Part shown: piece after piece, positions 10,019-47,616 of the stretch
How positions within the stretch are numbered: the first letter of the stretch is position 1
Layout: each line of letters starts with the position of its first letter
NCBI RefSeq assembly: GCF_016859125.1
Contig: NZ_CP069338.1
Coordinates: forward strand, 682,001 to 746,000
From: Archangium violaceum
GTDB taxonomy: Bacteria > Myxococcota > Myxococcia > Myxococcales > Myxococcaceae
Length of the DNA: 64,000 nt
Direction: 5' to 3'
Notes under the pieces: model-generated
The model's database searches: none
Told to the model about the DNA's origin: nothing
Seen by the model: only the letters and a program-made list of their open reading frames with translations
Translations under genes and position numbers: made by a program

Positions 10019-10513
10019 TCAACGGAAGCCGTCGACGATGAACACGGCCGCGCGAGAGTCATCGATCAACGCGACTCCAGGCGGGGACTCTGGCTTCTTC
10101 CGCAAGCCACCATGACCCAGGCGAGCCACGGCGCAGATGGGAATGGGCTCACCATCCGGAGGGCGTGCCTCGTAGTACCGGATGATGACATTGGGCCCGC
10201 CCGTCCATATCTGCCCGTACAGCCGGGTCAGGGGAGAGAGATACCCAAGCTCTTCGAGCAAGTAGCTCTCGACGGGCCCATCCGTGAGCGAGACCGGGCT
10301 CTGACTGCTCTGGTTGGCATCGATCACGATGGATGCGCTGCTATCCCCGGGGCGGAGCCGCAGGATTCGCATTGCCTCCAAAGCCTTCTGCGCGCACGCC
10401 TGAGGACCTGGACTTCCATCCGCCCGCAGTGACACACCAGGGCCCGTACAGCCGAGCCCCCAGCAGGACAACAGGATGAAGGCCGAGAGGTGGGTTGCTC
10501 TTGTCGAAACCAT
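10019..10513 (-). CDS. Lipoprotein homologous to a kinase sensor domain in this window
   Basis: 164-aa exported protein of unknown function. The hydrophobic leader (AFILLSCWGLGC, Cys22) suggests a lipoprotein, though the lipobox is not canonical. The mature part shows ACAQKALEAMRIL, an EELGYLSPLTRLYGQIW segment, then YYEARPPDGEPIPICAVA. I align this by eye with the C-terminal domain of the kinase at 42215-44230 (CPAGAVETMKTLG, GDWGKLPQKTLLSGRLIFG, EAKVPGGDTFKVCLEV), which shares both Cys positions. It may therefore be a stand-alone version of that extracytoplasmic domain. It lies downstream of the gene at 10569-11219, with a 55-base gap, and is convergent with prpE. Confidence 0.7.
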   Translation of the reverse strand: MVSTRATHLSAFILLSCWGLGCTGPGVSLRADGSPGPQACAQKALEAMRILRLRPGDSSASIVIDANQSSQSPVSLTDGPVESYLLEELGYLSPLTRLYGQIWTGGPNVIIRYYEARPPDGEPIPICAVARLGHGGLRKKPESPPGVALIDDSRAAVFIVDGFR

Positions 10514-10568
10514 GAACCGGAATCCTACTTCCTGGGCGGCGTACTCCCGCCTATGGAACGAATGAAGC

Positions 10569-11219
10569 TCAACGACGGACGCGCGCCGCCAGGGCCGCCA
10601 GGTCCAACTCGACGTAGCCTGGCCGAAGCCCTCCGTCTCTGAAGAGCTCCAGGGTGGCCAGCGCGTGCTCGACCGAGACTTCCTCCTGGCGATAGCGCTG
10701 GTTCTCGGCACGCAGCGCCCTGTTCTCCGCCTGCTTCGCTTGCAGCGCTGCCCGTACTGCCTCGGGGGACTCCGGCTCGGGAAAGACATCGACCTGCCCA
10801 TCCACGACGTCCTTCCCAGCGATCACGGTGAAGGGCAACGACGTGCCGTCCACTCCGATCCGCGATGAGCCGCTGCAACAGGAGGAGCAGGCCCCCACAC
10901 TCAGGACGTGGTCGGGCCCCTCCATCGCATGGTTCATGAGCCAGGCGCGCAGGCGAGGTGAGCCGTGGTGCAGTTCCAACAGGCGCTTATCGACATGGCG
11001 GGGCGGAGTGCCCTGGGTGTCCTCGAGCAGCCCAAGGAGCAGCTCGGCCGATTCGGGGAACCCGGGGAAGAGAACCTGTCGCACCAAGGGGTTCAGACGG
11101 GTCACGAGCTCGAGGAGCTTCTGACTCTCCTCGAGCGTCTGCGTCTCGCACATCAACCGCTGGCACAAGAAACGGAACTCCTCGGACTCGCCCTCATCCC
11201 TCGTGACGAGCAATTCCAT
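10569..11219 (-). CDS. Protein of unknown function with Cys cluster and C-terminal coiled coil
   Basis: 216-aa soluble protein; family not recognised. Two alpha-helical stretches (EEFRFLCQRLMCETQTLEESQKLLELV; PESAELLLGLLEDTQG) precede a small cysteine-rich turn, GACSSCCSGSSRIG, and a beta segment SLPFTVIAGKDVV. Next comes a heptad-like helix, AVRAALQAKQAENRALRAENQRY, likely a coiled coil that could drive dimerisation. No signal peptide. Start chosen at the ATG before ELLVTRDEG. It is probably co-transcribed with the lipoprotein gene just downstream. The Cys cluster might bind metal, but this is inference. Confidence 0.6.
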   Translation of the reverse strand: MELLVTRDEGESEEFRFLCQRLMCETQTLEESQKLLELVTRLNPLVRQVLFPGFPESAELLLGLLEDTQGTPPRHVDKRLLELHHGSPRLRAWLMNHAMEGPDHVLSVGACSSCCSGSSRIGVDGTSLPFTVIAGKDVVDGQVDVFPEPESPEAVRAALQAKQAENRALRAENQRYRQEEVSVEHALATLELFRDGGLRPGYVELDLAALAARVRR

Positions 11220-35227: not shown

Positions 35228-35286
35228 AAGTGGCCGCGGTTGGAGCGCATGCTCCCAGGCCGGACCGCACCGGGCCCGGCGTGACG

Positions 35287-36786
35287 TCAGAGGGCCACGC
35301 CGTAGAGGGCGCCGAACTTGGACTTGAGATAGGCGAGGAAGTCCGTGTCGGTGAGGCCCTGGCCCGTCACCTTGCGCACCAGCTCCTCGGCGGGCTGGCG
35401 GTAGCCCTCGGAGTGCACGTGGGTGCGCAGCCAGTCGCGCAGGGGCCGGAGCTCACCGCGGGCGAGGCCCTCCTCCAGCTTCGGCAGGGCGCGCTGCGCG
35501 GCGCGGTAGATGGACGCGGCGTAGAGGTTGCCCAGCGAGTACGTGGGGAAGTAGCCGAACTCACCCCAGGCCCAGTGGATGTCCTGCAGCACGCCCCGCG
35601 TGTCGTCCGGAGGGGTGACGCCCAGGAAGCGTTGCATGCGCTCGTTCCACGCCGAGGGCAGCTCCTCCAGCGGCAGCGCGTCGCGGATGAGCAGCAACTC
35701 CAGCTCGTAGCGCAGGACGATGTGCAGGTTGTACGTCACCTCGTCCGCCTCCACGCGGATGAACGAGGGCGTCACGCGATTGAGGGCGGCGTGGAAGGTG
35801 TCCAGGTCCACGCCCGAGAGCGCCTCGGGGAAGGCCTCGCGCAGCGCCGGGAAGTAGTGCGTCCAGAAGGCGCGGCTGCGTCCCACCAGGTTCTCCCACA
35901 GGCGAGACTGCGACTCGTGCAGGCCCATGGAGGGCGCGTTCGCCAGGGGCGTGCGGTAGTGGGCCTCGGAGAAGCCCTGCTCGTACAGGCCGTGCCCGCC
36001 CTCGTGCAGCGTGCTGAGGAGCGCCGTCAGCGAGCCCTCCTCGATGCCCGTGGTGAGACGCACGTCCGTGGGGTGCTGCCCGCTGGAGAAGGGGTGGATG
36101 CTCTTGTCCTGCCGCCCCGCCTCCAGATCGAACCCCATGTCCCCCAACAACCGCAGGGTGAAGCGCCACTGCGCCTCCGGATCGAAGCGTCGGCCCTGGA
36201 AGAGGTCCTCGACCTTGCGCGGCGCCGCCTGAATGGCCGCGACGAGCGGAATGAGGTTGTCGCGCAGGGCGCTGAGCACCGGGGTGAGGCGGGCCACGCG
36301 CATCCCGGGCTCGTAGCCCTCGAGCAGCGCGTCGTAGCGCTCGCCGCCGTGGCCATAGGCATCCGCCTGCTCGCGCCGCAGGGCCAGCATCCGCTCCAGC
36401 GCGGGCTGGAAGACGGCGAAGCGGTTCTGCTTGCGCGCCTCGCGCCACGCCACGAGACCCCGGCTCTGCGCCTCGGCGAGCGCCTGCACCAGCGCCTTGG
36501 GCACCTTCACCGCCCGGTCCCGCTCCTGGGTGAGCACGCGCGCCATGGCCCGCTGGTCGGCGGTGAGGCTCTTGTTGTCGGCCGCCCAGGCGAGCAGCTC
36601 GCCCAGCCGGGGATCGACCAGGCGCTCGTGGTGGATGCCCTGCAAGGTGGAGAGCTGGTGGGCTCGCGACTCCGCCGCCTTGGCGGGCAGGTAGGTCTCC
36701 TGGTCCCACGTGGCCAGGCCAATGAGTCCACCGATATCCCGGAGCTCCTGCATCCGGGCGAGCAGCGTGTCGAAGGTCTTTTCCAT
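35287..36786 (-). CDS. M32 family metallocarboxypeptidase (thermostable carboxypeptidase 1-like)
   Basis: 499-aa zinc carboxypeptidase that removes C-terminal residues from peptides. Zinc motif HEGGH is at 261-265 in LLSTLHEGGHGLYEQG, with the third ligand Glu in GLHESQSRLWEN. Additional M32 signatures: LATWDQETYLPAKAAESRAHQLS, HPFSSGQHPTDVRLTT, YNLHIVLRYELE and HWAWGEFGYFPTYSLGN. Length is normal and the protein is cytoplasmic, with no leader. Transcribed leftward, divergent from the gene at 36853 with 66 bases between. Confidence 0.95.
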   Translation of the reverse strand: MEKTFDTLLARMQELRDIGGLIGLATWDQETYLPAKAAESRAHQLSTLQGIHHERLVDPRLGELLAWAADNKSLTADQRAMARVLTQERDRAVKVPKALVQALAEAQSRGLVAWREARKQNRFAVFQPALERMLALRREQADAYGHGGERYDALLEGYEPGMRVARLTPVLSALRDNLIPLVAAIQAAPRKVEDLFQGRRFDPEAQWRFTLRLLGDMGFDLEAGRQDKSIHPFSSGQHPTDVRLTTGIEEGSLTALLSTLHEGGHGLYEQGFSEAHYRTPLANAPSMGLHESQSRLWENLVGRSRAFWTHYFPALREAFPEALSGVDLDTFHAALNRVTPSFIRVEADEVTYNLHIVLRYELELLLIRDALPLEELPSAWNERMQRFLGVTPPDDTRGVLQDIHWAWGEFGYFPTYSLGNLYAASIYRAAQRALPKLEEGLARGELRPLRDWLRTHVHSEGYRQPAEELVRKVTGQGLTDTDFLAYLKSKFGALYGVAL

Positions 36787-36852
36787 GGCGATCCTTTAGT
36801 CCGATTCGCCTCGGACTTCCGCAAGCGCCAGCATTCGGTTAATGGGCCACCC

Positions 36853-37398
36853 ATGGCCAGCCAGCTTCAGTTCTTCATGTCCCCCGACGACGAGGTCGCC
36901 TTCTTCCGCTTCCTCGAGCGCTTCGAGCTGGAGGTGTACCCCCGGCGCGTCCCCCCTGATTGGGAGGCCTTCCGAGCGAGCCAGGAGAACGTCCCCCGGC
37001 TGCCCGAGGAGGACCTCTACCTGGTGGCCGTCTCCGTGGGCCCGGCCATCGTGGACAAGGTGAAGCGCGGCCCGGACAAGGGCTTCTGGCGCATCGACGA
37101 GGTGCGCTCGCCGGTCATCTTCATGGAGCGCTGCCGGATGAACGAGGAGGGCGAGCTGCTCAGCGGGCAGATGTGGGCCGAGCTGGAGGTGACGCCCCAG
37201 ACGGGCCGCAAGGAGGCGGCCTCGGATCAGTTCCGGCGCCTGTACCGCGAGATCGAGGAGTACCTGAAGAAGACCTTCCGCAAGGGTGACCCCAAGGCCT
37301 TCTTCGTGGGCCCCAAGGCCGCGCGCCTCCACAAGGAAACCCGGCTGGTGCTGCGCGACTCGGCCCACCGCGGCGGCACGGTGGTGCCGTACAAGTAG
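36853..37398 (+). CDS. Conserved protein of unknown function
   Basis: 181-aa soluble protein, family not recognised. It begins SQLQFFMSPDDEVAFFRFLE, followed by DLYLVAVSVGPAIVDKV, FWRIDEVRSPVIFMERC and a helix DQFRRLYREIEEYLKKTFRKG. It ends in a basic tail. The pattern (strand, helix, two long strands, helix) is compact and the codon bias is strong, so it is expressed. No catalytic motif visible. The start ATG at 36853 is internal to a longer open frame running antisense to the carboxypeptidase; the true protein begins here, past the divergent promoter region. Confidence 0.75.
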   Translation: MASQLQFFMSPDDEVAFFRFLERFELEVYPRRVPPDWEAFRASQENVPRLPEEDLYLVAVSVGPAIVDKVKRGPDKGFWRIDEVRSPVIFMERCRMNEEGELLSGQMWAELEVTPQTGRKEAASDQFRRLYREIEEYLKKTFRKGDPKAFFVGPKAARLHKETRLVLRDSAHRGGTVVPYK

Positions 37399-37507: not shown

Positions 37508-39178
37508 ATGAGCCATCCAGCCACTGCCCCCGTCCGCGTCGGCACCATCCTGAGAGACACCTACGAGCTCATCTCGGAGCTGGGGAAAGGAGGAATGGGC
37601 GCCGTCTTCCTGGCCCAGCACCTCCGGCTTCCCGGCAAGCAGGTGGCGGTGAAGGTCCTCCACTGCCAGGAGGAGGTCAGCCCCGAGTTGCACGCGCGCT
37701 TCCAGCGTGAAGCGGAGATCACCTCGCGGCTCGGCCACCCGAACATCGTCGAGGTGCTCGACTTCCACAGCATGGAGGACGGCACGCCCTACCTGGTGAT
37801 GGAGTACCTGCGCGGCGAGAGCCTCTCGAAGCGGATGCGGAAGGGCCCCCTCCCACTCCAGGAGGCGCTCCTCATCGCGCGGCAGATCGGCTCGGCCCTC
37901 CACACCGCCCACCAGGCGGGGGTCATCCACCGGGACCTGAAGCCGGGCAACGTGTACCTCGTGCCCACCGAGTCCGGAGGCGTGCTCCACGAGCGGGTGA
38001 AGCTGCTCGACTTCGGCATCTCGAAGCTCGTCTCGGCCCAGACGCTCCACACCCAGGAGGACGTGCTCATCGGCACGCCGCGGTACATGTCGCCCGAGCA
38101 GGCGAAGGGAAAGAACCGCGAGCTCGATGCCCGCTCGGACCTGTTCTCCCTGGGAGCCATCGTCTACGAGATGCTGGCGGGACGGCCGCCCTTCAACTCG
38201 GAGTCCGTGGCGGGGCTCATCTACAACATCGTGCATGATCCGCCCGTCCCGCTGAGCCAGCTCTGTCCGGACCTTCCCGCGGAGGTGGTCGCGGCGGTGG
38301 AGCGGGCGCTCGCGAAGGAGCCGCAGGAGCGCTTCCCGGACGTCGCGTCATTCATCGAAGCGCTGACCGGGACGCCGCTCCAGAGCCTGCCCAAGCCGCA
38401 GCCGCAGCCGAGCCCAGAGCCCCGTCGTCCCCGGCAGGAGATCGTGACGGCGGGCCCCCGGGCCGCGCCCACGCCGCCCCAGGCGGAGGCTCCCAATCGC
38501 ACGGTGGCGTTGCGCCCCGGTGCCGCGGCGAAGTCGAAGGTCGCGGAGGAGCCGGCGCTCGCGGTGGTGTCGGCCCCCGAGGCCCCGCTCCCCGCGGCCC
38601 CGCCGAAGTCGAAGGCCCCGATGGCCGTGGGCGCGGCGGTGTTGATCCTGGTGGCCGCGACCGCCGGGTGGTGGTTGCTGCGCACCGCCCCCGCCCCCAC
38701 CGTCAGCGCACCGGAGAGCACGGCGAAGGCGGAGCCATCCCCGAAACCGGCCGACCCGCCCCCGCCGCCCGCCGTCGAGTCTCCGGCCCAGGCCCAGGCT
38801 GAAGCCGAGCCTCCTTCCGAGCAACGCCCGGAGGAGCCCGCGGTCTCCGAGCAGACGCCGGCTCCTACCGCCGCCGAGCCCGGTCCATCCGCGCGAGCCC
38901 CCACGCGCCAGGTCACGGCCGAGGTCATGCCCCAGGCGGTCCGGATGGATCTGGAAGAGGCGGAGAAAGCCCTTGCCGCGAACGATGCCGCGGAGGCGAT
39001 CCGACTCGCCCGCCGCAGCCAGCGGACGAAGGTCACCAAGGCGTCGTTCTCGCTCCTGACCCGGGCGCACTGTCGCCAGGGAGATCTCACCAACGCCCGC
39101 GCGCAGTGGGAGAAGGTTCTCCCGGCGGAGCGCAACCGGGTGCGTCAGTACTGCAAGCTATACGAAATCAACCTTTGA
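37508..39178 (+). CDS. Hanks-type Ser/Thr protein kinase, membrane-anchored
   Basis: 556-aa receptor-like kinase. The cytoplasmic kinase domain (about 18-285) has LGKGGMGAVF, QVAVKVLH, HRDLKPGN, LLDFGISK, GTPRYMSPEQ and LGAIVYEMLAG, so it should be active. A Pro/Ala-rich linker leads to a single membrane helix at 372-392 (AVGAAVLILVAATAGWWLL). The extracytoplasmic part starts with low complexity. It ends in a TPR-like helical hairpin (DLEEAEKALAANDAAEAIRLARRSQ, then LLTRAHCRQGDLTNARAQWEKVL). The ATG at 37508 opens the domain but lacks a clear binding site. A lipoprotein gene and a secreted-protein gene follow directly, so these may form one signalling unit. Confidence 0.92.
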   Translation: MSHPATAPVRVGTILRDTYELISELGKGGMGAVFLAQHLRLPGKQVAVKVLHCQEEVSPELHARFQREAEITSRLGHPNIVEVLDFHSMEDGTPYLVMEYLRGESLSKRMRKGPLPLQEALLIARQIGSALHTAHQAGVIHRDLKPGNVYLVPTESGGVLHERVKLLDFGISKLVSAQTLHTQEDVLIGTPRYMSPEQAKGKNRELDARSDLFSLGAIVYEMLAGRPPFNSESVAGLIYNIVHDPPVPLSQLCPDLPAEVVAAVERALAKEPQERFPDVASFIEALTGTPLQSLPKPQPQPSPEPRRPRQEIVTAGPRAAPTPPQAEAPNRTVALRPGAAAKSKVAEEPALAVVSAPEAPLPAAPPKSKAPMAVGAAVLILVAATAGWWLLRTAPAPTVSAPESTAKAEPSPKPADPPPPPAVESPAQAQAEAEPPSEQRPEEPAVSEQTPAPTAAEPGPSARAPTRQVTAEVMPQAVRMDLEEAEKALAANDAAEAIRLARRSQRTKVTKASFSLLTRAHCRQGDLTNARAQWEKVLPAERNRVRQYCKLYEINL

Positions 39179-39209: not shown

Positions 39210-40013
39210 GTGAGAATCATTCTGACAATGGTCATCGCCGTGGGGATGTTCGGCTGCGCCACGACCCGGGCGCCCATCGGAGCCGGGAAGGTCTTCTCGG
39301 GCCCACAGGGCGAAGAAGTGGCGGTCATCCCGCTCCTCCCCGCGGAGGAGCAGAAGGCGCTCGTCTACGTCCAGGGCACGGGCGGCGAGTTCGACGGCAA
39401 GGCGCTCCCGCACAAGCACGACGCCTACGACGGCAAGGAGGACTACACCACGACGCTGCGGGGCAGCGACTACCGGACGTTCATCGTGCGGCCCCAAGGG
39501 GGCGCCCGGAGCCATCAGCTCCATGTGCCCGGGCGCAACAATGGCATCCGCGTTTCCTACGACGAGGCTCGCACCCAGGCGCTGAAGGCCAGGGACATCT
39601 ACGCGCTGTACGAGAAGCAGAAGGCGGACGGCACGCTCGACAAGCTCGCGGCGTTCGACCGCACGGGCACGATGGCGCGGCACGACCAGTCGCTCGCCGA
39701 GACGCTGAACGCGATGAACAAGACCTGCGGCACCTCGGTGACCGCGACAATCGTCTGGGATTCCATCTCGGATGAGCTGCTGAAGGACTACAGCATCGCC
39801 TCCTTCTGCGAGAGCCCGCTCACCGCGCTGGAGAAGCTGTGCGACACGAACGTGAGCAAGCGGATCATCGGCGAGAAGGTGCGGGAAGTCCGCTGCCAGT
39901 TCGGGGATGAGATGAAGCTGTCCGTCGACGCGGGGCGCGTGACGTGGACGACGCAGCAGGATGCCGCGAACCAGGAAGACTTCGCCGTCCAGTATTTCGA
40001 AAAGAACCTCTAG
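39210..40013 (+). CDS. Lipoprotein of unknown function
   Basis: 267-aa exported lipoprotein: leader ends GMFGC with Cys16. The mature part shows beta strands first (ALVYVQGTGGEFDGK, DYRTFIVRPQGG) and helices after (EARTQALKARDIYALYEKQ). Four or more cysteines in the second half (KTCGTS, FCESP, LCDTN, RCQFG) suggest disulfides outside the cytoplasm. GTG 39210 has GGGGGA upstream. It starts 31 bases after the membrane kinase gene and the next gene starts 11 bases after it, so the three are probably one operon. Function unknown. Confidence 0.75.
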   Translation: MRIILTMVIAVGMFGCATTRAPIGAGKVFSGPQGEEVAVIPLLPAEEQKALVYVQGTGGEFDGKALPHKHDAYDGKEDYTTTLRGSDYRTFIVRPQGGARSHQLHVPGRNNGIRVSYDEARTQALKARDIYALYEKQKADGTLDKLAAFDRTGTMARHDQSLAETLNAMNKTCGTSVTATIVWDSISDELLKDYSIASFCESPLTALEKLCDTNVSKRIIGEKVREVRCQFGDEMKLSVDAGRVTWTTQQDAANQEDFAVQYFEKNL

Positions 40014-40024
40014 ACGGAGCGCCC

Positions 40025-40831
40025 ATGTCAGCTCGTCACATCTTCGCCACCGCCGCGGTCCTCCTCACCTCCAACGCCTCGTGGGCCATCGAGCCCCCAT
40101 GGGGCAAGGCCCAGAACCTGGGAGAGAAGCGGCTCCTCGAGAAGACCGCCGTCTGCACCGATGGCAAGGGTCACTACTTCACCCTGACACCCGGCAGGGA
40201 CGGCCCGGACCAGCTCTTCTACGGGGACGGCCGCACGTTCGTGCAGGTGCCCCTCGCCCGGTACTCCAATACCTCCTTCCTGGAGCCGCGCTTCGTCGAC
40301 AAGAGCCGCAACCCCAACTTCCGCGGCATGGACATGCGCGTGTACTCGGATGTCATCGTGGACAGGGAGAAGGGGAGCTGCGCGGTGCGCTGCGGCGAGC
40401 GGACCGTCCCCTTCTCCTTCGTCGAGTCCGAGAAGGCACAGGAGCTGCTCCTGTCCGCCTCGTTCGCGGAGAACCCGCAGAAGTTCGTGCCCTACGCCCT
40501 GCTCCGGGACAGCAAGGGCGTCTACTACCTGGTGGAGCGGGGTTTCCGGCCGGAGGAGGAGAACCGCTTCCGGGTGTCCATCGGGCCCAAGGGCAATCTC
40601 AAGCCGCAGCAGATGGTCAACCTCGTCTCCGATTCGGAGGGGCAGATCTTCTCCACGAAGAAGGGCGATCTCCGGCTCGTGGTGGACGAGAAGAAGCCCT
40701 CGATCTGGATCGAGAAGAAGAAGAAGCTCGAGCTGCGCGCGGTGCCCGTCTCGGAGAACCTGCCGCTCATCTACAACGAGCTGGGGCCCTACACCGGCGT
40801 CCGGCTGGGCACGCCCTGCGACGATCAGTGA
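40025..40831 (+). CDS. Secreted protein of unknown function
   Basis: 268-aa protein with a signal peptide cleaved after SNASWA. The mature part is beta-rich: HYFTLTPGRDGPDQLFYGD, VYSDVIVDREKGSCAVRCGE, YYLVERGFRPEEENRFRVSIGPKG and DLRLVVDEKKPSIWIEKKKKLELR. It reads like a periplasmic or outer-membrane-associated beta sandwich or propeller. Cysteines are few. It lies 11 bases downstream of the lipoprotein gene in the kinase operon. No family recognised. A hairpin element follows the stop codon. Confidence 0.75.
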   Translation: MSARHIFATAAVLLTSNASWAIEPPWGKAQNLGEKRLLEKTAVCTDGKGHYFTLTPGRDGPDQLFYGDGRTFVQVPLARYSNTSFLEPRFVDKSRNPNFRGMDMRVYSDVIVDREKGSCAVRCGERTVPFSFVESEKAQELLLSASFAENPQKFVPYALLRDSKGVYYLVERGFRPEEENRFRVSIGPKGNLKPQQMVNLVSDSEGQIFSTKKGDLRLVVDEKKPSIWIEKKKKLELRAVPVSENLPLIYNELGPYTGVRLGTPCDDQ

Positions 40832-40894: not shown

Positions 40895-40932
40895 TCCAGA
40901 CGTTACCAACACAGGTGCAGCAAGCGCGGCCC

Positions 40933-41135
40933 ATGTTGGCGCGGCTGCTGACGGTGCGAGAGGTGGCGGAACGGCTGGCGGTGTCTCCTGCTACCGTTCA
41001 CAGCCTGTGCGCCGCTGGGCGGCTCCGGTTCGTTCGGGTGGGACTGCCGTGAGGATTGACCCGGTCAGTCTGGAGGCGTTCATGGCCACCGGAAGCCAGT
41101 CCTGTGGGAGAACAGGCAGCCCCGCCGGGGCTTGA
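40933..41135 (+). pseudogene. Frameshifted excisionase-type helix-turn-helix gene
   Basis: The frame from ATG 40933 reads LLTVREVAERLAVSPATVHSLCAAGRLRFVRVG, the helix-turn-helix and wing of an excisionase/MerR-like DNA-binding protein. It then hits TGA at 41050. A neighbouring frame continues with TAVRIDPVSLEAFMATG, exactly the expected end of such a domain, to TGA at 41135. One indel near 41038-41045 explains the break. Such proteins usually accompany integrases in mobile elements. No integrase is visible, so this is likely a remnant marking the left edge of the island. Programmed frameshifting or a sequencing error are the alternatives. Confidence 0.65.
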
Positions 41136-41176
41136 GCAATGAGGGGCCTTCCCGCGTCGAGACACGCGGGCTCACA

Positions 41177-42112
41177 TCAAAGCCCCAGCCCCACAGTCAA
41201 AGCCGGAAAGGTCACGTTCCCGATGACGAAGGTTCGTTGGCCGTCAGCCTCCCAGAGCTTCAGGGTGAAGGTGCCCTCTGTCCGCGCGTCCGGGGCCATC
41301 ACTTCGAGCCAGACGCGGCGCTCCTCACCCGAAGGGATGGGCTCGGCTGGCCAGAAGGTCGCGTCCAGTACCTCTCCCCTGGGCCCGACCAAAACCGCGC
41401 CTTGCGGTGTCCACGACTTCACCGCGTCCGGGTTCTCCAACCACAACTCGATGGCGACCCGGCCAGGAGCGCGGAATGTCGTTACAGTCCGTGGCCGTAG
41501 GGTGTTGCTCTCGCGCTTGGTGATGCGCTTGGTGATGGTTTGAGACGGGATGCCCGCTTCCCCCACCATGCCCGAGGCGAACAGCCCGATCAGGCCCTCC
41601 GGCCTGTCTCGTTCCGCGTGCAGCCGTTGGATTTCCGCGCGCAGATCCGAGTTCTCCTCGCGCGTCTTCCTCAACTCGGCCTGGACGGAGTCCACCGAAC
41701 GCGGGTGGCGGAAGATCTCCACCTGGCGCTCACCAATCGCGGGATGGACAACCAACCGGAAGTTTGCGCAAGCAGGAACCGCATCATCGGCGAAGCACAC
41801 CGTCACCATGCTGGATTTCGCACCGCGCATCTTCTCCGAGGGCTCAAGCGTGAGGAGCCGCCTTCCAGGCGCCACCTCGAAGTGCTCGCGATTCTCCAAC
41901 GTCATCCCGCCCGCCCGCACATCCGAGTCGAAGCGGAAGGTGGTGGGCTGCCCTGGACTGATTTGAACCTCGGGGACTTCGTTGGTCCCTTCCGCCGTCA
42001 GCTCGATGCAGCGGCCCTCTGCCTCCCCTGGCGGAGGACAGGTCTGCGCGGTGGCGGAAGTCCCCGCGAGAAGCAGCATCATCAGGAACGCAGCAGGCAA
42101 CGAAGCGAACAC
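41177..42112 (-). CDS. DUF2381 (TIGR02268) family exported protein
   Basis: 311-aa protein of a myxobacterial paralogous family without known function. Cleavable leader (AAFLMMLLLAGTSATAQ), then CPPPGEAEGRCIELTAEG and a beta-rich domain (TTFRFDSDVRAGGMTL, SSMVTVCFADDAVPACANFRLVV). A coiled coil (VQAELRKTREENSDLRAEIQRLHAERD) follows at about 150-178, then a second beta domain (RVAIELWLENPDAVKSWTPQGAVL). GTG 42112 starts the leader. The kinase gene lies upstream on the same strand, 102 bases away. In myxobacteria DUF2381 genes frequently sit beside kinase genes, so a sensor or envelope partner role is inferred. Confidence 0.82.
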   Translation of the reverse strand: MFASLPAAFLMMLLLAGTSATAQTCPPPGEAEGRCIELTAEGTNEVPEVQISPGQPTTFRFDSDVRAGGMTLENREHFEVAPGRRLLTLEPSEKMRGAKSSMVTVCFADDAVPACANFRLVVHPAIGERQVEIFRHPRSVDSVQAELRKTREENSDLRAEIQRLHAERDRPEGLIGLFASGMVGEAGIPSQTITKRITKRESNTLRPRTVTTFRAPGRVAIELWLENPDAVKSWTPQGAVLVGPRGEVLDATFWPAEPIPSGEERRVWLEVMAPDARTEGTFTLKLWEADGQRTFVIGNVTFPALTVGLGL

Positions 42113-42214
42113 GGGGAGAAGACTCCGAAGCAGAAACGGTGTCCGCCTCTATCACGGCTCCGGGCCCCATGGTGACTGAGCCCGGGGCGATGGTACTGAC
42201 CGCTCGGCAGGCCC

Positions 42215-44230
42215 TTATTCGAAGCTGCTGACGGCTCTCACGCGCACCGTGGAGAAGACTCGTGCGCTCTCCGGTCCTCCGTTCGGCTCCCGAATGGCGC
42301 CTCTCCCACCCTCCTCGTCTCTCACTTCCAGGCAGACCTTGAACGTGTCTCCGCCCGGCACCTTGGCTTCGGTGAGTCTCCCGTACACGCGCCCATCGCC
42401 GAAGATCAGCCGCCCGGACAAGAGAGTCTTCTGCGGCAACTTCCCCCAGTCGCCAATCAATCGGATGGTGGTGTCACCCTCTTTCACGGTGATGTACATG
42501 GCCTCAGGCGAGGGGAATGTCGCGGGATGTTGGTTCCCGATGTCGAGGCCGAGCGTCTTCATCGTCTCGACCGCGCCCGCCGGACATGGAGCAGGTTCCG
42601 GAGTGGGGCGAACCTGCGGTGCTGGGCAGCCAGACAGCGCCGTACAGAGGGCCGCTGAACCAAGCGCATTGCCCGCGCGTCCGAGGACCTTCGTCTTCTT
42701 CTGTTGGGGCTTCTCGCTGCTGTCGTCCTTGCGAAGCATCGTGATCATGACAGGCGCGGAAATGGAGCCCATCGCAGGCTCGGCGCCTTCTCCGCTTGGA
42801 GGATCCAGCGGCTTCGCGGATTGCGCCACTTCACGACCGGGCCCGGCTTGTCGAGTGGGAGCGGCCTCGGATGACGTGTGGAGTGGAGCCGACTCAGGAC
42901 CAGTGGGCAGCGAGGTTGCGAACAGGAACGCGCCGAGCGCCACAGCCGCGCCCCCCACTGCTGCTGCGAAGCGAGAGCGACGGCGCGAGACCGGAGGGGT
43001 CGGGGCTGGTGTAGCTCGCGGTGCTCCATGAGGGGCCGGGGCTTGGGATGCTGGTGGCGGAACCGGCTCCGGTGGAACCGGCTCCGAGACAAGGACAGCA
43101 GCAGCAACGGGAGATTGCTGTTCCGGCACGACGGCGACAACTTCGGCCTTGGGCGCAGGTGCTTCTCCGGCCTTCTCCATGGCCTCGGGTGCAAGAGCCG
43201 GAACCTTCTTCGGTGGCATCCGGCCTCTCCGACGCTCTTTCTTCAGCCAACGTCGGAGCCAGCGCTTCGAGTCGTCCACATCCACCAGCGCGGGATCTTC
43301 CTCGGTCGTCCTGGTGTGGGGCGAGTCCGGCTCGAACAGCGGGAGGTCCCAGCTTGCATCGGCCTCGGCGTTGGCCATGGCCGCATCGAGTGCCGCGCAG
43401 AAATCGACCACACTCCCGTAGCGTGCTGCCGGGTCCTTCTCCAACATCCGCATGCAGATGTCGGAGAGTGCTCGCGAGACTCGTGGATTGAGAACATGCG
43501 GCGCCACAGGCGTTTGGTGGAGGATGCGTTCCGCGAGTCCGCCCTCTTCTCCATCCTCCCTGTCTCCGAACGGAAGGATGTCCGTCAGCAGCCAATAGAA
43601 CGACACCCCAAGGGCCCAAAGCTCGTCCGCTGGGCTGTAGTCGTAGCTCCCGGAATCGTTATCTCTGCTGAAACGCCACGCCTCGGGCGCGCGGAACTCG
43701 ATGGTTCCTGGCGGAAGACGCGAAGTGGTGGGGGCTGGGAGCCCCGTGAGCGTGCTCACGCCGAAGTCGATCAGCAGCGGTCTCGTGTTCCCATCCCGGA
43801 TGATGACGTTGTCCGGCTTGAGGTCCCTGTGCATGACGCCTTGCCGAAGCACTTCGCCGAGCGTCAGCCCGATATCCAGCATGATGCGCGCGGACTTGCG
43901 CGCCGAGGGGTTCTCCTCCGAAACATACGTCTCCAGGGTCCGGCCCCCGGCGAACTCCATGACGATGTAGGGGTGACCGACGAATGGATCCGGCCAGTAT
44001 CCGCATCCGAAGAAGCGGACGACATCGGGATGCTCCAGGTGGTTCAGGATGCTGCTCTCTCGCTTGGCCCTGTCATTCAACAAGTGGCCCCGGAGGATCT
44101 TGACGGCGTAGAAGCATCCAGCCTGCTCGGCCTTGTAGACGTAGCCGTAGCTCCCGCTGCCGAGCCTCTCGACAATGCGGTAGCCCCCGACCATTTCTTG
44201 GGTTTCCGGCAACCTGTAGACCAATCCCAC
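42215..44230 (-). CDS. Transmembrane Ser/Thr kinase with lipoprotein-like C-terminal domain
   Basis: 671-aa receptor-like kinase. The kinase domain (about 15-285) is complete: LGSGSYGYVYKAE, YAVKIL, MHRDLKPDN, LLIDFGVST, PGTIEFRAPEAW and WALGVSFYWLL. A basic, Pro/Ala-rich juxtamembrane region leads to one membrane helix (FAAAVGGAAVALGAFLFATSL, about 435-455). The outer part ends in a domain that starts like a lipoprotein leader (NALGSAALCTALSGC) and continues CPAGAVETMKTLG, GDWGKLPQKTLLSGRLIFG and TFKVCLEV. That domain also occurs alone in the lipoprotein at 10019-10513. GTG 44230 is preferred: GGGGGTGG lies just upstream and a longer reading would overlap the divergent XRE start. Confidence 0.9.
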   Translation of the reverse strand: MGLVYRLPETQEMVGGYRIVERLGSGSYGYVYKAEQAGCFYAVKILRGHLLNDRAKRESSILNHLEHPDVVRFFGCGYWPDPFVGHPYIVMEFAGGRTLETYVSEENPSARKSARIMLDIGLTLGEVLRQGVMHRDLKPDNVIIRDGNTRPLLIDFGVSTLTGLPAPTTSRLPPGTIEFRAPEAWRFSRDNDSGSYDYSPADELWALGVSFYWLLTDILPFGDREDGEEGGLAERILHQTPVAPHVLNPRVSRALSDICMRMLEKDPAARYGSVVDFCAALDAAMANAEADASWDLPLFEPDSPHTRTTEEDPALVDVDDSKRWLRRWLKKERRRGRMPPKKVPALAPEAMEKAGEAPAPKAEVVAVVPEQQSPVAAAVLVSEPVPPEPVPPPASQAPAPHGAPRATPAPTPPVSRRRSRFAAAVGGAAVALGAFLFATSLPTGPESAPLHTSSEAAPTRQAGPGREVAQSAKPLDPPSGEGAEPAMGSISAPVMITMLRKDDSSEKPQQKKTKVLGRAGNALGSAALCTALSGCPAPQVRPTPEPAPCPAGAVETMKTLGLDIGNQHPATFPSPEAMYITVKEGDTTIRLIGDWGKLPQKTLLSGRLIFGDGRVYGRLTEAKVPGGDTFKVCLEVRDEEGGRGAIREPNGGPESARVFSTVRVRAVSSFE

Positions 44231-44327
44231 GGAACCACCCCCGAGAATGCCGAGCCTACCAGCCTCGTGGAGAGCGAGCTGCGCTCCGAAAGCCACGGCC
44301 CCCCGTCCACCGTGGTAGACGGCCTCC

Positions 44328-44699
44328 ATGGACGAAGAACTTCAGCGCTCCCTCGGAGAGGTGGCTCGCGCGGCACGGGAGCGCCTCGGACTCACGCAGG
44401 CCCAAGTCGCCCAGAAGGTGGGTCTCGTCCCGGGTGTCTACGGGAGGATCGAACGCGGCGACATGATGCCGTCCGTCCCGAGCCTGCGGCGAATCAGCAT
44501 CGTCCTGGGAATCTCGTCTGACGCGCTGATGGGGGTGAGCCCTTCGCGGGTTGCAGCCACGGTGGATGAAGCGCCCCCAGTGGAGAACCTCTCGCCTGAA
44601 CTTCGGCGCATCCTCCATCAACTTCGCACGTGGACGCCGAAGCGGCTGAAGGTGCTCAGCAAGGTGCTGACCGTACTTGCTTCCTCCTTCGAGGATTGA
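44328..44699 (+). CDS. XRE-family regulator (paralogue A)
   Basis: 123-aa Cro/CI-type regulator. The helix-turn-helix is at about 10-65: VARAARERLGLTQAQVAQKVGLVPGVYGRIERGDMMPSVPSLRRIS. The C-terminal tail (SPELRRILHQLRTWTPKRLKVLSKVL) probably dimerises. It is divergent from the kinase gene, with about 97 bases between starts, and convergent with a clearly paralogous XRE gene. The Val-Xaa-Gly-Arg-Ile/Leu-Glu-Arg-Gly core is shared by both. It could control the kinase/DUF2381 transcript. Confidence 0.85.
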   Translation: MDEELQRSLGEVARAARERLGLTQAQVAQKVGLVPGVYGRIERGDMMPSVPSLRRISIVLGISSDALMGVSPSRVAATVDEAPPVENLSPELRRILHQLRTWTPKRLKVLSKVLTVLASSFED

Positions 44700-44718
44700 G
44701 CCAGGTAGAACCATCCGC

Positions 44719-45129
44719 TTACTCGGCTTGACCATCTGGCCGTTGTGCCGTGTGTCTCACCAGCGCATTGGCCGTGCTGAGCATGACGGATACCTGTGCG
44801 GCGTCCATGCGGCGAAGCGTTCTCACCAGTCGGCGCAGCTCGGGTGGATCATCTGCCTCGGGTTCAGGCACCTTCAGCCACGAAGGAGCCTTCTCGACAT
44901 CGAGCCCCAGGACGATGTTTGCGTCCAGGCGCAGCACGCGGCACAACCTGCGAAAGGTCGGAACGCTCGGGAGTAGGTATCCTCGCTCCAGCCGACCGAA
45001 AACCTCGGTGACGATCCCAACGCGATCCGCCACATCAGCCTGGGTCAGCTCGGCCGTCTTGCGAGCCTCACGCACGACCGCTGCCAGGTGGACCATCAGC
45101 TTCTTCTTCTCGTTCTGCCTGTCCGTCAT
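44719..45129 (-). CDS. XRE-family regulator (paralogue B)
   Basis: 136-aa Cro/CI-type regulator paralogous to the product of 44328-44699: AAVVREARKTAELTQADVADRVGIVTEVFGRLERGYLLPSVPTFRRL matches it almost helix by helix, and PPELRRLVRTLRRMDAAQVSVML aligns with the same tail. A basic extension (MTDRQNEKKK) precedes the domain. Only 19 bases separate the two convergent stop codons. The pseudokinase gene lies upstream on the same strand, 20 bases away, so the two are probably co-transcribed. Confidence 0.85.
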   Translation of the reverse strand: MTDRQNEKKKLMVHLAAVVREARKTAELTQADVADRVGIVTEVFGRLERGYLLPSVPTFRRLCRVLRLDANIVLGLDVEKAPSWLKVPEPEADDPPELRRLVRTLRRMDAAQVSVMLSTANALVRHTAQRPDGQAE

Positions 45130-45149
45130 CGGTGCGCTCGGTCCAGTGG

Positions 45150-46310
45150 TTATCGGATGCTCGATGCCTTCGGCCAGGGGAGGACACCCATCTCGATAGG
45201 GTGCGCATCCTTCCGCTTGAGGGCGGATGCTTTCTTGAGGATGTCGGCCAGTTCCGCTGCCGCCTCGGTGGCGCCGAAGGGTTGGCCGAGACTGCGAAGG
45301 TACGCGCGCAGATCGTCACGCAATTCAGCGGCCGACTGGTAGCGCTCAGCGGGGTCGCGCTGAAGGGCCCGGAGTGCGATCTTCTTCAAAGGGGCCGGGG
45401 CTTGCTGGGCGATGCGTTCCACGTCCTCGGGTCCGAAGCGCAAGAGCCGGTCAGCCAGCACCTCGATGGAAGCCCACGCCGACTGCTCGGCCTTCACGCC
45501 CGAAACGAGCCGAAGCGCGCGTCTGGATACCTCGGGTGGCAGTACGTCAGGAGGATCGAGCGGATGGTGGCCCGCGATCATCTCCAGCAGCACGAGCCCG
45601 AGCGAGAAGATGTCCGCGCGGCTGTCGATCCCCTTGGGCGAGAGAAGACCGGCCCGGCCCTTCTCGGAGACGGAGCGAATGATCTCCGGGGCCGCGTAGG
45701 CGAAGTTTCCTCGGAGCACTCGCGGCGGAGTGGGAACGCGGCCGAGAAGCTCGGAGAAGGCCGCGCCGAAGTGGGTGAGCTTCACCCGACCGTTGCGTCC
45801 GAGGCGAATGCTCATGGGACTCACGGCCCGGTGAACGATGTGAAGCTCGCGCCCTCTGTCGTCCTCGCACTGGTGGGCGTAGTCGAGAGCGTTGGCCACC
45901 TCGGCGGCGATGAAGGCGGCGAGGGCAGGCGAGAGCTTCCGCTCCAGCAGCAGCCCGGAGCCGATGATCGTGGCCAGGAACGCTCCTGGCGAGTGTTCCA
46001 TCACCACGAAAGGGGCCCCCTGATACTCGGCGAGCCGGAGAACGCGGCCGAGCCTCGGGTGATGCAGGTACTCGGCGAGCTGAACTTCCTCGATTGCTCG
46101 GGTCCGGCCCTCGCGCCCCTCCGGAACTTCTACCTGCTTCAGGACGACGAGCCTCCGGCGAGCCTTCTCCTTCAAGGGCCTGCACCACGAGAGAAACAGG
46201 GTGTCGTAGTCCACGTGTTCGAGGAGGGTACGAAACACCTCGTAACGGAAGCCTCCTGACTCGAAGGTGAAGCGCCCCGTGTCCGTGGGCGGGTTGCCGG
46301 TTCCGATCAT
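45150..46310 (-). CDS. Pseudokinase of the Ser/Thr kinase family
   Basis: 386-aa protein with a Hanks kinase fold but lost catalytic residues. The VAIK-like lysine is kept (RLVVLKQVEVP) and the alpha-C Glu may be in RAIEEVQLAEYL. The catalytic loop reads HIVHRAVSPMSIRL, Ala replacing the HRD Asp and Met replacing the loop Asn-1 region. The metal loop reads LTHFGAAF, His replacing the DFG Asp. C-lobe features remain: YAAPEIIRS, SRADIFSLGLVLLEMIAG and LKKIALRALQRDPAERYQSAAELRDDL. It should bind partners rather than phosphorylate. I chose ATG 46310 (GGGAAA upstream) over a GTG at 46385. No membrane helix. Confidence 0.85.
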   Translation of the reverse strand: MIGTGNPPTDTGRFTFESGGFRYEVFRTLLEHVDYDTLFLSWCRPLKEKARRRLVVLKQVEVPEGREGRTRAIEEVQLAEYLHHPRLGRVLRLAEYQGAPFVVMEHSPGAFLATIIGSGLLLERKLSPALAAFIAAEVANALDYAHQCEDDRGRELHIVHRAVSPMSIRLGRNGRVKLTHFGAAFSELLGRVPTPPRVLRGNFAYAAPEIIRSVSEKGRAGLLSPKGIDSRADIFSLGLVLLEMIAGHHPLDPPDVLPPEVSRRALRLVSGVKAEQSAWASIEVLADRLLRFGPEDVERIAQQAPAPLKKIALRALQRDPAERYQSAAELRDDLRAYLRSLGQPFGATEAAAELADILKKASALKRKDAHPIEMGVLPWPKASSIR

Positions 46311-46872
46311 GTGGTTTCCCGTGCGCTGCGGATCGCCTGAGAGGAGTGCGAGTCCCCATTGGTTATTTCCAACGTGCTCCGACACGTACCATGGAAGGGC
46401 GGAGAAATGGAAGGCACCTTACCAGGTAGGTCATCACCTCCGGGCATCCGGCAGGAGTAGGCTTGAGCCGCGGAAGGGACAACCAGGTGCGGATGCACCT
46501 ACGGGGAGGAGAGCCGACCCAAGCCCCGGCCCTTATGGAACCGGCCCCTGTCGAGAAACGAGCAGGACGGGCTGCGGCTCATGGAACAGGAAGTCACCGA
46601 GCCCAACCTCTTCCTCCGCCAGGGCGGGCCACGCGCGATGGAGCGTCTGGTGGAGGCCATCGTCCATCAGGTGCGAGGCAGATAGCACCGCTTACGTCGT
46701 CGGCTGACCAAAGGTTGGCGCTACCCGAACGGTTGACGCGCCAGTGGGAAGGGGCACCTGCTGGTCTGGATCGCCTCGCAGGCCCTGAGTTACACTCTGT
46801 CACCATCCGTTGAACTGCCAGTCAACAATCAGGGACTTGCCTGTTTCGAAGCAAGTCGAAGGGCGTGAACCC
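46311..46872. other. Region upstream of the pseudokinase, possible gene debris
   Basis: About 560 bases without an intact gene. One rightward frame is open from about 46466 to TAG 46683 and reads protein-like: PLWNRPLSRNEQDGLRLMEQ, then EVTEPNLFLRQGGPRAMERL and VEAIVHQVRGR. Its only ATG is at 46581 (34 aa). It may be the end of a decayed gene; family not recognised. The rest probably holds the pseudokinase promoter. Confidence 0.3.
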
Positions 46873-47097
46873 ATGATGAGGTTACTCGCCATAGTTCAGA
46901 CGCCCCAAGGATCGAAGAGCAAGCGATTCGTTGATGTGGTGGGCGTGGAACCGTCGACAGGGAGTGTCGAGGAAATGCATCAGGTGGGTCGCCAAACGAA
47001 GGACGGTCAGCCCGTGGCTCGTGAAAGAAAAGCCTTGGATGATATCCAGAAAGCAACGGGGGAGCGTCCAGAGTTCCACCCATACAAAGATGAATAG
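46873..47097 (+). CDS. Small orphan protein resembling a polymorphic-toxin C-terminal domain
   Basis: 74-aa protein. The first half contains a beta strand with an acidic start (KSKRFVDVVGVEPSTGSVEEMHQVG). The second half is QVGRQTKDGQPVARERKALDDIQKATG, ending ERPEFHPYKDE. From memory, a strand ending in MHQVGxQT followed by PVxRExxALDDIxxATGxxPxFHPY closes several restriction-endonuclease-fold polymorphic toxin domains. Here it stands free, with no export or pre-toxin region upstream. It may be an orphan toxin cassette or a truncated toxin. The next gene starts 9 bases downstream and could be its immunity gene. ATG 46873 has GAAGGG upstream. Confidence 0.5.
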   Translation: MMRLLAIVQTPQGSKSKRFVDVVGVEPSTGSVEEMHQVGRQTKDGQPVARERKALDDIQKATGERPEFHPYKDE

Positions 47098-47106
47098 CCG
47101 ACTCAC

Positions 47107-47616
47107 ATGGGACACCAGATCAGGTTTTTTCTGACTCCTGCGGACCTTCAAATCCTCGAGCAGCGGCTGAAGGCACACTGTCCGGTGGTTTATCTGGACT
47201 ACAGGTCGGAACAGCCTGTTCCGAGATTGCTCTCCACGCTCGCTGTGGCCGAGTTCGGCAAGACGTGGCTGCCGATGCTCCTGGTGCCGCCAGAATCATT
47301 GGAGGCGCTCAGCTTCGAGAATGTGATGCAACAGGGCTACTGGACCGTGGATCTGTTGCGGTCACCCGCTATCGAGTTGAGCCGCTGTTTCTACGACGGG
47401 AAGATCCTTCGTGTTGGACGCCTGTTCTATGATCGGGGCTTCTATGATGAGACGGGCAACTGGGTTGAGAAGCCCGCCGCTTTTCAAGCCTGGGCGAAGA
47501 AAGTGTTTTCAGTGGCACGTAAAGGACTCCAGAGGGATGTTGCCTTGGATGCCTATGTCGGAGAGAACGCCCAGGCGGAACGTCAGCGGGCGGGGCTTAG
47601 ACTGGTGTCGACTTGA
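47107..47616 (+). CDS. Putative immunity-type protein of unknown family
   Basis: 169-aa soluble acidic-to-neutral protein. It starts GHQIRFFLTPADLQILEQRL (strand plus helix), then KAHCPVVYLDYRSEQPVPRLL. The centre is GYWTVDLLRSPAIELSRCFYDGKILRVGRLFYDRGF, and the end is a helix FQAWAKKVFSVARKGLQRDV. The gene is 9 bases downstream of the toxin-like fragment, a spacing typical of toxin/immunity cassettes. I do not recognise a named family, so the immunity role is inference from context. Base composition is clearly less GC-rich than in the flanking housekeeping genes. Confidence 0.55.
   Translation: MGHQIRFFLTPADLQILEQRLKAHCPVVYLDYRSEQPVPRLLSTLAVAEFGKTWLPMLLVPPESLEALSFENVMQQGYWTVDLLRSPAIELSRCFYDGKILRVGRLFYDRGFYDETGNWVEKPAAFQAWAKKVFSVARKGLQRDVALDAYVGENAQAERQRAGLRLVST

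Follow-up and report, generated by a model that had tools for sequence, protein, structure and literature searches.

The outer-membrane core of type IV secretion systems (T4SSs) is formed by the VirB9/VirB10 pair (TrwF/TrwE, DotH/DotG, CagX/CagY, or TraK/TraB), and antenna helices of VirB10 form the outer-membrane channel. Receptor kinases of the PknB/PASTA type have a Hanks-type kinase, one transmembrane (TM) segment, and an extracytoplasmic part. Here we describe a locus that shares features with both. It lies at positions 41177 to 46310 of a 64,000-nucleotide stretch of Archangium violaceum DNA (the window) from a 12.68-Mb genome (G000) and consists of gene A (DUF2381), gene B (transmembrane kinase), genes C and D (XRE regulators), and gene E (pseudokinase). 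Pfam and NCBIfam scans recovered all five genes in the directions given in a preliminary description of the locus. We consider it probable that they are one copy of a mobile five-gene cassette in which A and B make up an envelope receptor derived from parts of the T4SS outer-membrane core.

A and B resemble the T4SS core in their predicted folds and in the N-in, single-TM, proline-rich layout of B, and the outgroup pair stands at the VirB9-VirB10 place. In contrast to the T4SS core, B carries an N-terminal Ser/Thr kinase and lacks antenna helices in its model. B is similar to PknB/PASTA kinases in having a Hanks-type kinase, one TM segment, and an extracytoplasmic part, but that part is predicted to be VirB10-like and is accompanied by a VirB9-like partner, a pseudokinase, and XRE regulators; Pfam scans of B found no PASTA domain. 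SitBAI outer-membrane-exchange toxin genes are neighbors of many other copies, although the module itself encodes no toxin domain. The preliminary description regarded the system as undescribed, and we likewise found no description of it in the papers searched. In the open-licence literature, no mention was found of DUF2381, TIGR02268, or the "Myxococcus xanthus paralogous family," and no title or abstract start referred to a fusion of a kinase with VirB10 or a T4SS in myxobacteria.

Predicted folds of A and B

A is predicted to have the fold of VirB9, and the C-terminal domain of B that of VirB10, both outer-membrane core proteins of T4SSs. An AlphaFold2 model of A, based on an alignment of 28 DUF2381 proteins, had a mean pLDDT of 84 and a pTM of 0.52. 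When this model was compared with the PDB using Foldseek, the first eight rows were all T4SS core-complex chains (E values of 3.6e-9 to 5.1e-5), and their VIA Z scores of 12.9 to 10.2 compared with 8.4 for the next, unrelated row. The match was clear for the N-terminal domain (residues 29 to 137), which is followed by a helix (residues 140 to 168) and a C-terminal beta domain (residues 190 to 305); the latter matched less clearly and aligned to VirB9 chains only under a different domain orientation. We take the matched chains to be VirB9-type on the basis of their titles and chain letters.

The last 160 residues of B were modeled with a mean pLDDT of 86.6, with 10-residue blocks at 87 to 98 from residue 31 onward. 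The first 14 Foldseek rows came from T4SS core complexes, and in VIA 14 T4SS entries had Z scores of 10.8 to 6.5 (root mean square deviation [rmsd] of 2.5 to 3.3 over 94 to 107 residues), relative to 2.7 for the next row. ComB10 and CagY are named in the titles of matched entries, and the remaining chains are presumably VirB10-type, judging from chain letters. PDB entries that matched both A and B did so through different chains (8rt6, A versus B and v; 6gyb, C versus B). The model of B contained one helix (residues 42 to 48) and none after it, so no antenna helices were present in these 160 residues.

Upstream of this domain, the predicted TM segment of B reached a Kyte-Doolittle value of 1.61 (19-residue window at residue 452 of the 704-residue open reading frame [ORF]), barely above our chosen cutoff of 1.6. 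An internal Cys in a ..LSGC motif is invariant in 26 of 26 aligned rows, and the motif resembles the N terminus of stand-alone VirB10CTD-type lipoproteins of G000 (L195, L196, and L197). Since such lipoproteins would explain the motif, it may be the relic of a fused lipoprotein. No separate VirB7 lipoprotein gene was seen in the module, where no search was aimed at VirB7. The kinase of B is predicted to be active given its full set of catalytic residues (VAIK Lys, HRD Asp, Asn, and DFG Asp), which is found in 98 of 109 B-type rows, a number that counts the window's B twice; the other 11 rows are gapped there.

Relationship to type IV secretion gene clusters

DUF2381 was found in 57 of the 146 Myxococcota genomes drawn. 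As outgroups, we used the seven DUF2381 genomes from outside the window's family together with a small genome of the same family that has one copy (G045), which gave ten loci; gene models for these, for module flanks, and for later analyses came from a codon-usage caller made for this work. At all ten loci in the eight genomes, DUF2381 lay with T4SS-type genes and upstream of a kinase gene, which followed it immediately at eight. VirB4 was seen at nine, while the tenth begins at a contig end. Pfam or NCBIfam backed the assignment of VirB2, VirB4, and the coupling protein in G155, whereas the VirB3, VirB5, VirB6, and VirB8 places were assigned from gene order and similarity among the outgroup loci. 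The kinase of this cluster (L194) matched both Pfam Pkinase (1.1e-31) and TrbI (1.3e-7; 32.1 bits, cutoff of 35) in one chain. Three loci of G100 were more distant, with DUF2381 E values of 1e-9 to 4e-8, their VirB10-type part matching weakly or not at all.

When the C-terminal domain of module B proteins was compared with six T4SS versions by profile comparison, they matched with a probability of 94.5% (E value of 7.8e-8, 81 columns), the alignment stopping before the antenna-like insert. The kinase domain of B scored 97 to 139 bits against six T4SS kinases and 36 to 90 bits against seven other kinase-fold genes tried. Throughout the outgroup clusters (L194 and L208 to L216), DUF2381 occupies the VirB9 place and a gene after it begins with a Ser/Thr kinase domain. 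By eye, a small XRE-like gene (L215:10563-10889) lies between DUF2381 and the kinase in one cluster, and two genes (L216:9540-11167) are wedged between them in another.

G000 itself has 31 DUF2381 matches, 29 of them above the curated cutoff. Of the 30 DUF2381 loci read in this genome, 19 have a type-B kinase as neighbor (a weak one in L035 and L036), 5 have a VirB10CTD lipoprotein-type gene (on the other strand in L037; at 10 kb in the window, with DUF2381 in fragments), and 6 are alone or in fragments. Some DUF2381 partners look like lipoproteins. One module's DUF2381 gene is split into two pieces 3.4 kb apart (L022:11305-15710). A single VirB4 query, of the L194 lineage, had no match in G000 at an E value of 1e-10; it matched in one of six Archangium genomes, on a 73.5-kb contig. 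That contig (L217, G003) carries VirB4 and positional VirB9/VirB10 genes that, in contrast to the outgroup clusters, have no kinase domain.

Linkage and co-divergence of the five genes

E frames were collected from a search of 96 family genomes (among the matches listed), from region fetches, and from a search of named genomes (best 80 loci). Deduplication on the last 250 residues left 119 distinct E frames, including the window's; their labels use score cutoffs that we chose, and several loci end at contig ends. Among the 44 E frames at least 45% identical to the window's (itself included), 36 had XRE, B, and A genes nearby, 8 were partial (several at contig ends), and none stood alone. At 38 to 45% identity, 12 of 27 belonged to complete modules and 6 of 27 were alone, and below 38% the corresponding numbers were 11 and 23 of 48.

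Distances among E, B, A, and XRE proteins were correlated (r of 0.60 to 0.88), a level that 0 of 5,000 shuffles reached. When shuffling was restricted to copies within genomes, r was 0.55 to 0.88, relative to 0.42 to 0.59 for the best shuffle (again 0 of 5,000); since these shuffles reach 0.42 to 0.59, part, but not all, of the co-divergence reflects relatedness. The sample consisted of 64 of the 68 E-B-A modules, second E copies that share a single B having been dropped, 54 of them with XRE genes and 36 used within genomes. Given that the same genes recur together in dozens of loci and co-diverge, the linkage of the five genes is far beyond chance. The preliminary description had proposed looking for this linkage across relatives; the genes are indeed linked in most close relatives, with XRE genes accompanying the kinase genes.

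Gene order varied among copies (X, XRE gene). The main arrangements included E>X>X>B>A (13 loci), E>X>X>X>B>A (5), and the window-type E>X>X<B>A (4, and another 3 that have an additional kinase hit close by). Six loci had B>A>E>X>X<, and seven had A>B>E with no XRE gene. Records of Myxococcus, Corallococcus, Hyalangium, other family genomes, and one labeled Comamonas sp. contributed E>X<X<B>A (8) and E>X<B>A (7). Archangium and genus g6 together had 37 complete modules, of which 24 were one-directional (E>X..>B>A), 7 were window-like, and 6 were B>A>E>X>X<. The idea of a symmetrical unit made of two half-modules is correct in part, its tail-to-tail XRE pair being one arrangement among several. 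The separable blocks that we observed were {E, D, C} and {B, A} rather than one XRE gene and one kinase gene per side.

Movement of the cassette

The segment from 41118 to 46541 of the window aligned over about 5.3 kb, at 79.5 to 83.6% DNA identity, to six intact copies in three genomes; a seventh copy, without XRE genes (L045), aligned in pieces. The flanks were unaligned except for a 0.2-kb fragment of a small helix-turn-helix (HTH) gene in two copies and a few weakly similar stretches. Of 125 cassette pairs whose core aligned over 3 kb or more, 84 shared less than 500 bp of flank and 41 shared more. Three pairs (L067/L071, L069/L072, and L048/L074) were 90 to 93% identical across genomes with 0 to 406 bp of shared flank, some on short contigs. 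In five of five other Archangium genomes, both neighbors of the window's site (a block at 35286 to 37396 and prfC) occurred at a spacing of 0.8 to 14.7 kb, and the module was found between them neither by DNA matching nor in gene lists; in G006, this interval carries a different kinase gene. An eye check of the edge alignment, made without a formal test, revealed no terminal repeats. These comparisons indicate that the cassette is mobile and one copy among many. Together with linkage and co-divergence, they bear out the earlier view of a compact, accessory signaling module.

Pseudokinase E and regulators C and D

In the window, E has HRA, Ser, and HFG in place of the HRD Asp, the Asn at HRD+5, and the DFG Asp, while the VAIK Lys and the alpha-C Glu are kept, which agrees with its earlier designation as a pseudokinase. 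The HRD Asp was replaced in all 44 E frames at least 45% identical to the window's (43 Ala, 1 Gly). Replacement was found in 53 of the 90 E frames that have a module neighbor (with one gap) versus 0 of 29 solitary E frames, and the VAIK Lys was kept in 70 of 90 and 29 of 29, respectively. The HRD Asp, Asn, and DFG Asp were all kept in 11 of the 90, of which 7 belonged to complete modules of the Myxococcus/Hyalangium type. Corallococcus modules have a changed DFG and Asn in E, and their sister clade keeps all three residues.

A FastTree phylogeny of 108 E sequences, rooted at the midpoint and without short sequences or loci from L151 onward, had two changes of the HRD state, relative to a shuffled mean of 36, and five switches of the state "any of the three residues changed." A simple biological reading would be repeated loss of the catalytic residues. 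Since parsimony places the changed state at the midpoint root and some deep branches are weakly supported, the direction and number of losses can be read from this tree only tentatively. We rejected the idea that E is a decaying gene in the window's clade given its long open frame in most copies and the HRD change in 44 of 44.

C and D are paralogous, as the preliminary description had it (39% identity over 98 residues). In 35 of 45 modules with at least two XRE genes, the D type was adjacent to E and the C type stood at the opposite end; type positions were mixed in the inverted-pair group. The distance from E to the XRE gene in other copies was mostly -28 to +9 bp, and over-long ORFs account for the large negative values. 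C and D matched NF041951 (RstR-type) at 44 and 33 bits, both below the cutoff of 80.

Neighbors of other copies

Recurrent families in module flanks included a phage major head protein, head protease, tape measure, tail protein, endolysin, integrases, and excisionase (PHROGs). Nine phage/integration families matched 27 of 63 module loci, Sit-type families matched 30, and either matched 41. The respective numbers were 0, 1, and 1 for 27 solitary-E loci, 0, 2, and 2 for 5 B-A-only loci, and 0, 2, and 2 for 12 XRE-kinase-E loci without A, and none of 32 background loci matched the flank models. Because these models derive from module flanks, the tally has some circularity and overstates the contrast. 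The window matched none of the 15 flank models.

A lipoprotein-type gene following a SitB-like gene overlapped it by 11 bp in all 10 cases with such a gene within 60 bp, and 8 of these 10 genes had a lipobox pattern; three of the cases (L028, L033, and L082) were not complete modules. An 11-bp sitB-sitA overlap has been published for the three sitBAI cassettes of M. xanthus DK101 (PMC5562445). Named Sit families gave no match to the lipoprotein-type proteins of the flanks, so the Sit assignment rests on this layout. In G000, the single genome covered by this count, 5 of 15 SitB-like loci had a DUF2381 gene no more than 10 kb away, relative to an expected number of 0.71 (P = 4.8e-4). The 15 loci were merged by hand from 18 matches, six of the module midpoints were set by hand, 30 of 31 DUF2381 matches were used (two pieces of one gene were merged), and the count is free of the circularity of the flank tally. 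Directly upstream of E, 11 loci had a short lipoprotein gene whose product was homologous to the N-terminal part of SitA (hhalign probability of 99.6%, E value of 6e-25, 34% identity). These lipoproteins (L072:8830-9348 and equivalents) are far shorter than SitA toxins.

Discussion

Our results suggest that secretion parts have been reused as a signaling receptor. This reading builds on computed linkage, co-divergence, movement, predicted folds, outgroup T4SS synteny, and catalytic residues. As to how such a receptor might work, we infer contact between A and B, a signal, phosphorylation targets, and output genes. A change in the envelope would be felt by the VirB9/VirB10-type scaffold (A and the C-terminal domain of B) and relayed along the VirB10-like chain to the putatively active cytoplasmic kinase of B. 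A conformational relay along this chain is plausible in that a title among the references of PMC12624023 calls VirB10 an ATP energy sensor of T4SSs. B could then work with, or on, E, which may be an adaptor or decoy rather than a phosphotransferase. With the E gene directly preceding the gene for D, the order would be from scaffold to B, to E, and then to D and C, which may alter transcription, most simply that of the cassette and the surrounding mobile element (phage or Sit genes in many copies).

The simplest history would begin with a T4SS containing a kinase-VirB10 chimera; the machine would then have been lost and the VirB9/VirB10-kinase pair have spread as an envelope receptor. E and the XRE genes would have joined the pair later, the set then riding on mobile elements. 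We put forward more tentatively, as a possibility that we somewhat doubt, that the VirB10 kinase chimera of a conjugative element was cut loose and multiplied as a trans-envelope receptor kinase for mobile elements, sensing contact-delivered toxins or envelope attack. On this bolder view, the outgroup elements would be T4SSs whose channel itself is a kinase, and the cassette would represent a new class of envelope signaling with an evolving pseudokinase and twin XRE repressors. DUF2381 is a family of unknown function, and its reading as VirB9, beside a kinase-VirB10 chimera, would give many myxobacterial kinases a testable sensor and add a kinase to a T4SS core subunit in the outgroup elements. 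The cassette would also be a clear example of how secretion components can become a probable receptor, and one in which kinase and pseudokinase forms occupy the same place within one module.

Several observations weigh against a receptor of T4SS descent. A matched the VirB9 model TIGR02781 weakly (E value of 0.0099), TrbI matched one of 26 B rows (E value of 0.027), and PDB profile searches with A and B found no T4SS protein; because these own-sequence signals are weak, the VirB9/VirB10 case rests on predicted folds and outgroup synteny. The whole-length Foldseek TM-scores of A were low (TMq of 0.25 to 0.29), since the two-domain alignments have an rmsd of 15 to 22 and the N-terminal domain carries the match. 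The subunit identity of the matched PDB chains depends on titles and chain letters, and an attempt to name them by way of a kinase-free T4SS failed. B-A pairs without E and XRE genes exist, so E and the XRE genes are not needed by every copy, and E is, by its catalytic residues, a pseudokinase in the window's clade but not everywhere. Among seven copies, no 8-mer that might serve as a shared operator was common to the E-upstream and B/C regions in more than three, and no conserved palindrome was found upstream of E.

The mobile surroundings could point instead to a prophage or integrative-element switch, in which the XRE pair acts like CI/Cro, the envelope kinase signals induction, and the benefit falls to the element rather than the host. 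Head, tail, endolysin, and integrase genes were confirmed at module loci, phage/integration families were absent from all four control sets, a decayed excisionase-like gene lies at the window edge, and C has a weak RstR-type match. The families were nonetheless picked for recurring in module flanks, 36 of 63 loci and the window match none of them (other phage families were not looked for), and both XRE proteins fall below the phage-repressor cutoff; we therefore regard this switch as doubtful. The excess of SitB-like loci near DUF2381 genes, the uniform 11-bp overlap, and the SitA-like lipoprotein upstream of E could indicate that the receptor senses SitA-type lipoproteins delivered through outer-membrane exchange and controls the expression of immunity or counterattack functions. 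We think such a kin-competition sensor unlikely, given that the window copy and its seven closest relatives (L039 to L045) have no Sit-model match, that Sit-type matches also occur in three control sets, that the genome-wide test covers G000 alone, and that Sit cassettes are mobile cargo anyway, whose co-location may be hitchhiking.

A defense role, one of two options raised in the preliminary description, found no direct support. Although the genomic site is variable and the best PADLOC scores were to known defense kinases (PD-T4-6 and MADS6), PADLOC gave generic kinase-domain and HTH matches only, and no nuclease or other effector gene was seen that belongs to the module; we set this candidate aside, an anti-phage island with abortive kinase signaling being quite improbable. 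Finally, the locus could reflect ordinary expansion of myxobacterial Ser/Thr kinases with accidental neighbors, since G000 has 221 first-look E candidates among the matches listed, 10 of which passed an E value of 1e-30. The fixed gene set, co-divergence, and movement as a unit contradict this idea and make it scarcely credible. The T4SS-derived envelope receptor remains our preferred reading.

Locus layout and neighboring genes

The DNA unit common to other copies spans about 41118 to 46541, and its features are listed in Table 1. The mechanical ORF of B has 704 codons (start at 44329) and overlaps the start of C. In the seven copies aligned, residues resembling VGLVYRLPE come after a conserved ribosome-binding site and GTG; we therefore placed the start at about 44230, which gives a protein of 671 residues and leaves 97 bp to C. 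For E, the alignment of seven copies agreed with the start at 46310 given previously.

TABLE 1 Features of the cassette and its edges in the window
Feature	Positions	Strand	Basis or remark
Gene A, DUF2381/TIGR02268, exported	41177-42112	-	Pfam PF09544, 147 bits; TIGR02268, 256 bits
Gene B, transmembrane Ser/Thr kinase with predicted VirB10-type C-terminal domain	42215-44230	-	Pfam Pkinase, 1.8e-34
Predicted VirB10 C-terminal-domain fold of B	42224-42568	-	AlphaFold2, Foldseek, VIA
Internal lipobox-like Cys of B (..LSGC)	42626-42628	-	Lipobox judged by eye
Single predicted TM segment of B, after RRRSR, with proline-rich stretch before	42914-42982 (limits approximate)	-	Hydropathy
B/C divergent intergenic region	44231-44327		Conserved among copies (7 aligned)
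Gene C, XRE regulator, C type, inverted in this subtype	44328-44699	+	Pfam HTH_3, 50.5 bits
Gene D, XRE regulator, D type	44719-45129	-	Pfam HTH_31, 40 bits; 20 bp downstream of E
Gene E, pseudokinase, 386 residues from revised start	45150-46310	-	Pfam Pkinase, 76 bits
Conserved noncoding block 5' of E, reaching right edge of cassette	46311-46541		DNA alignments of copies
Left edge of homologous cassette, just beyond end of A	41118-41176		DNA alignments of copies
Small HTH gene, excisionase-like by eye, frameshifted in window	40909-41130	+	86-88% DNA match

The small HTH gene gave no match to the excisionase model built here. It reads through in L043 and L044, both of which have an integrase-type Int1 match (E values of 1e-8 and 2.5e-22). 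Two small genes (46810 to 47616, plus strand) lie between the module and prfC and may be a toxin remnant and an immunity gene; neither (46810 to 47097 and 47107 to 47616) had a match in the family scans made. Another Ser/Thr kinase gene (37508 to 39178, plus strand) lies in the interval that separates the module from the conserved block ending at 37396; it is followed by genes for two probably exported proteins (39228 to 40013 and 40025 to 40831, plus strand) with no NCBIfam match. The window also contains a second DUF2381 site, at which a VirB10CTD-type lipoprotein gene (10019 to 10801) overlaps a DUF2381 fragment (about 10650 to 10850, minus strand).

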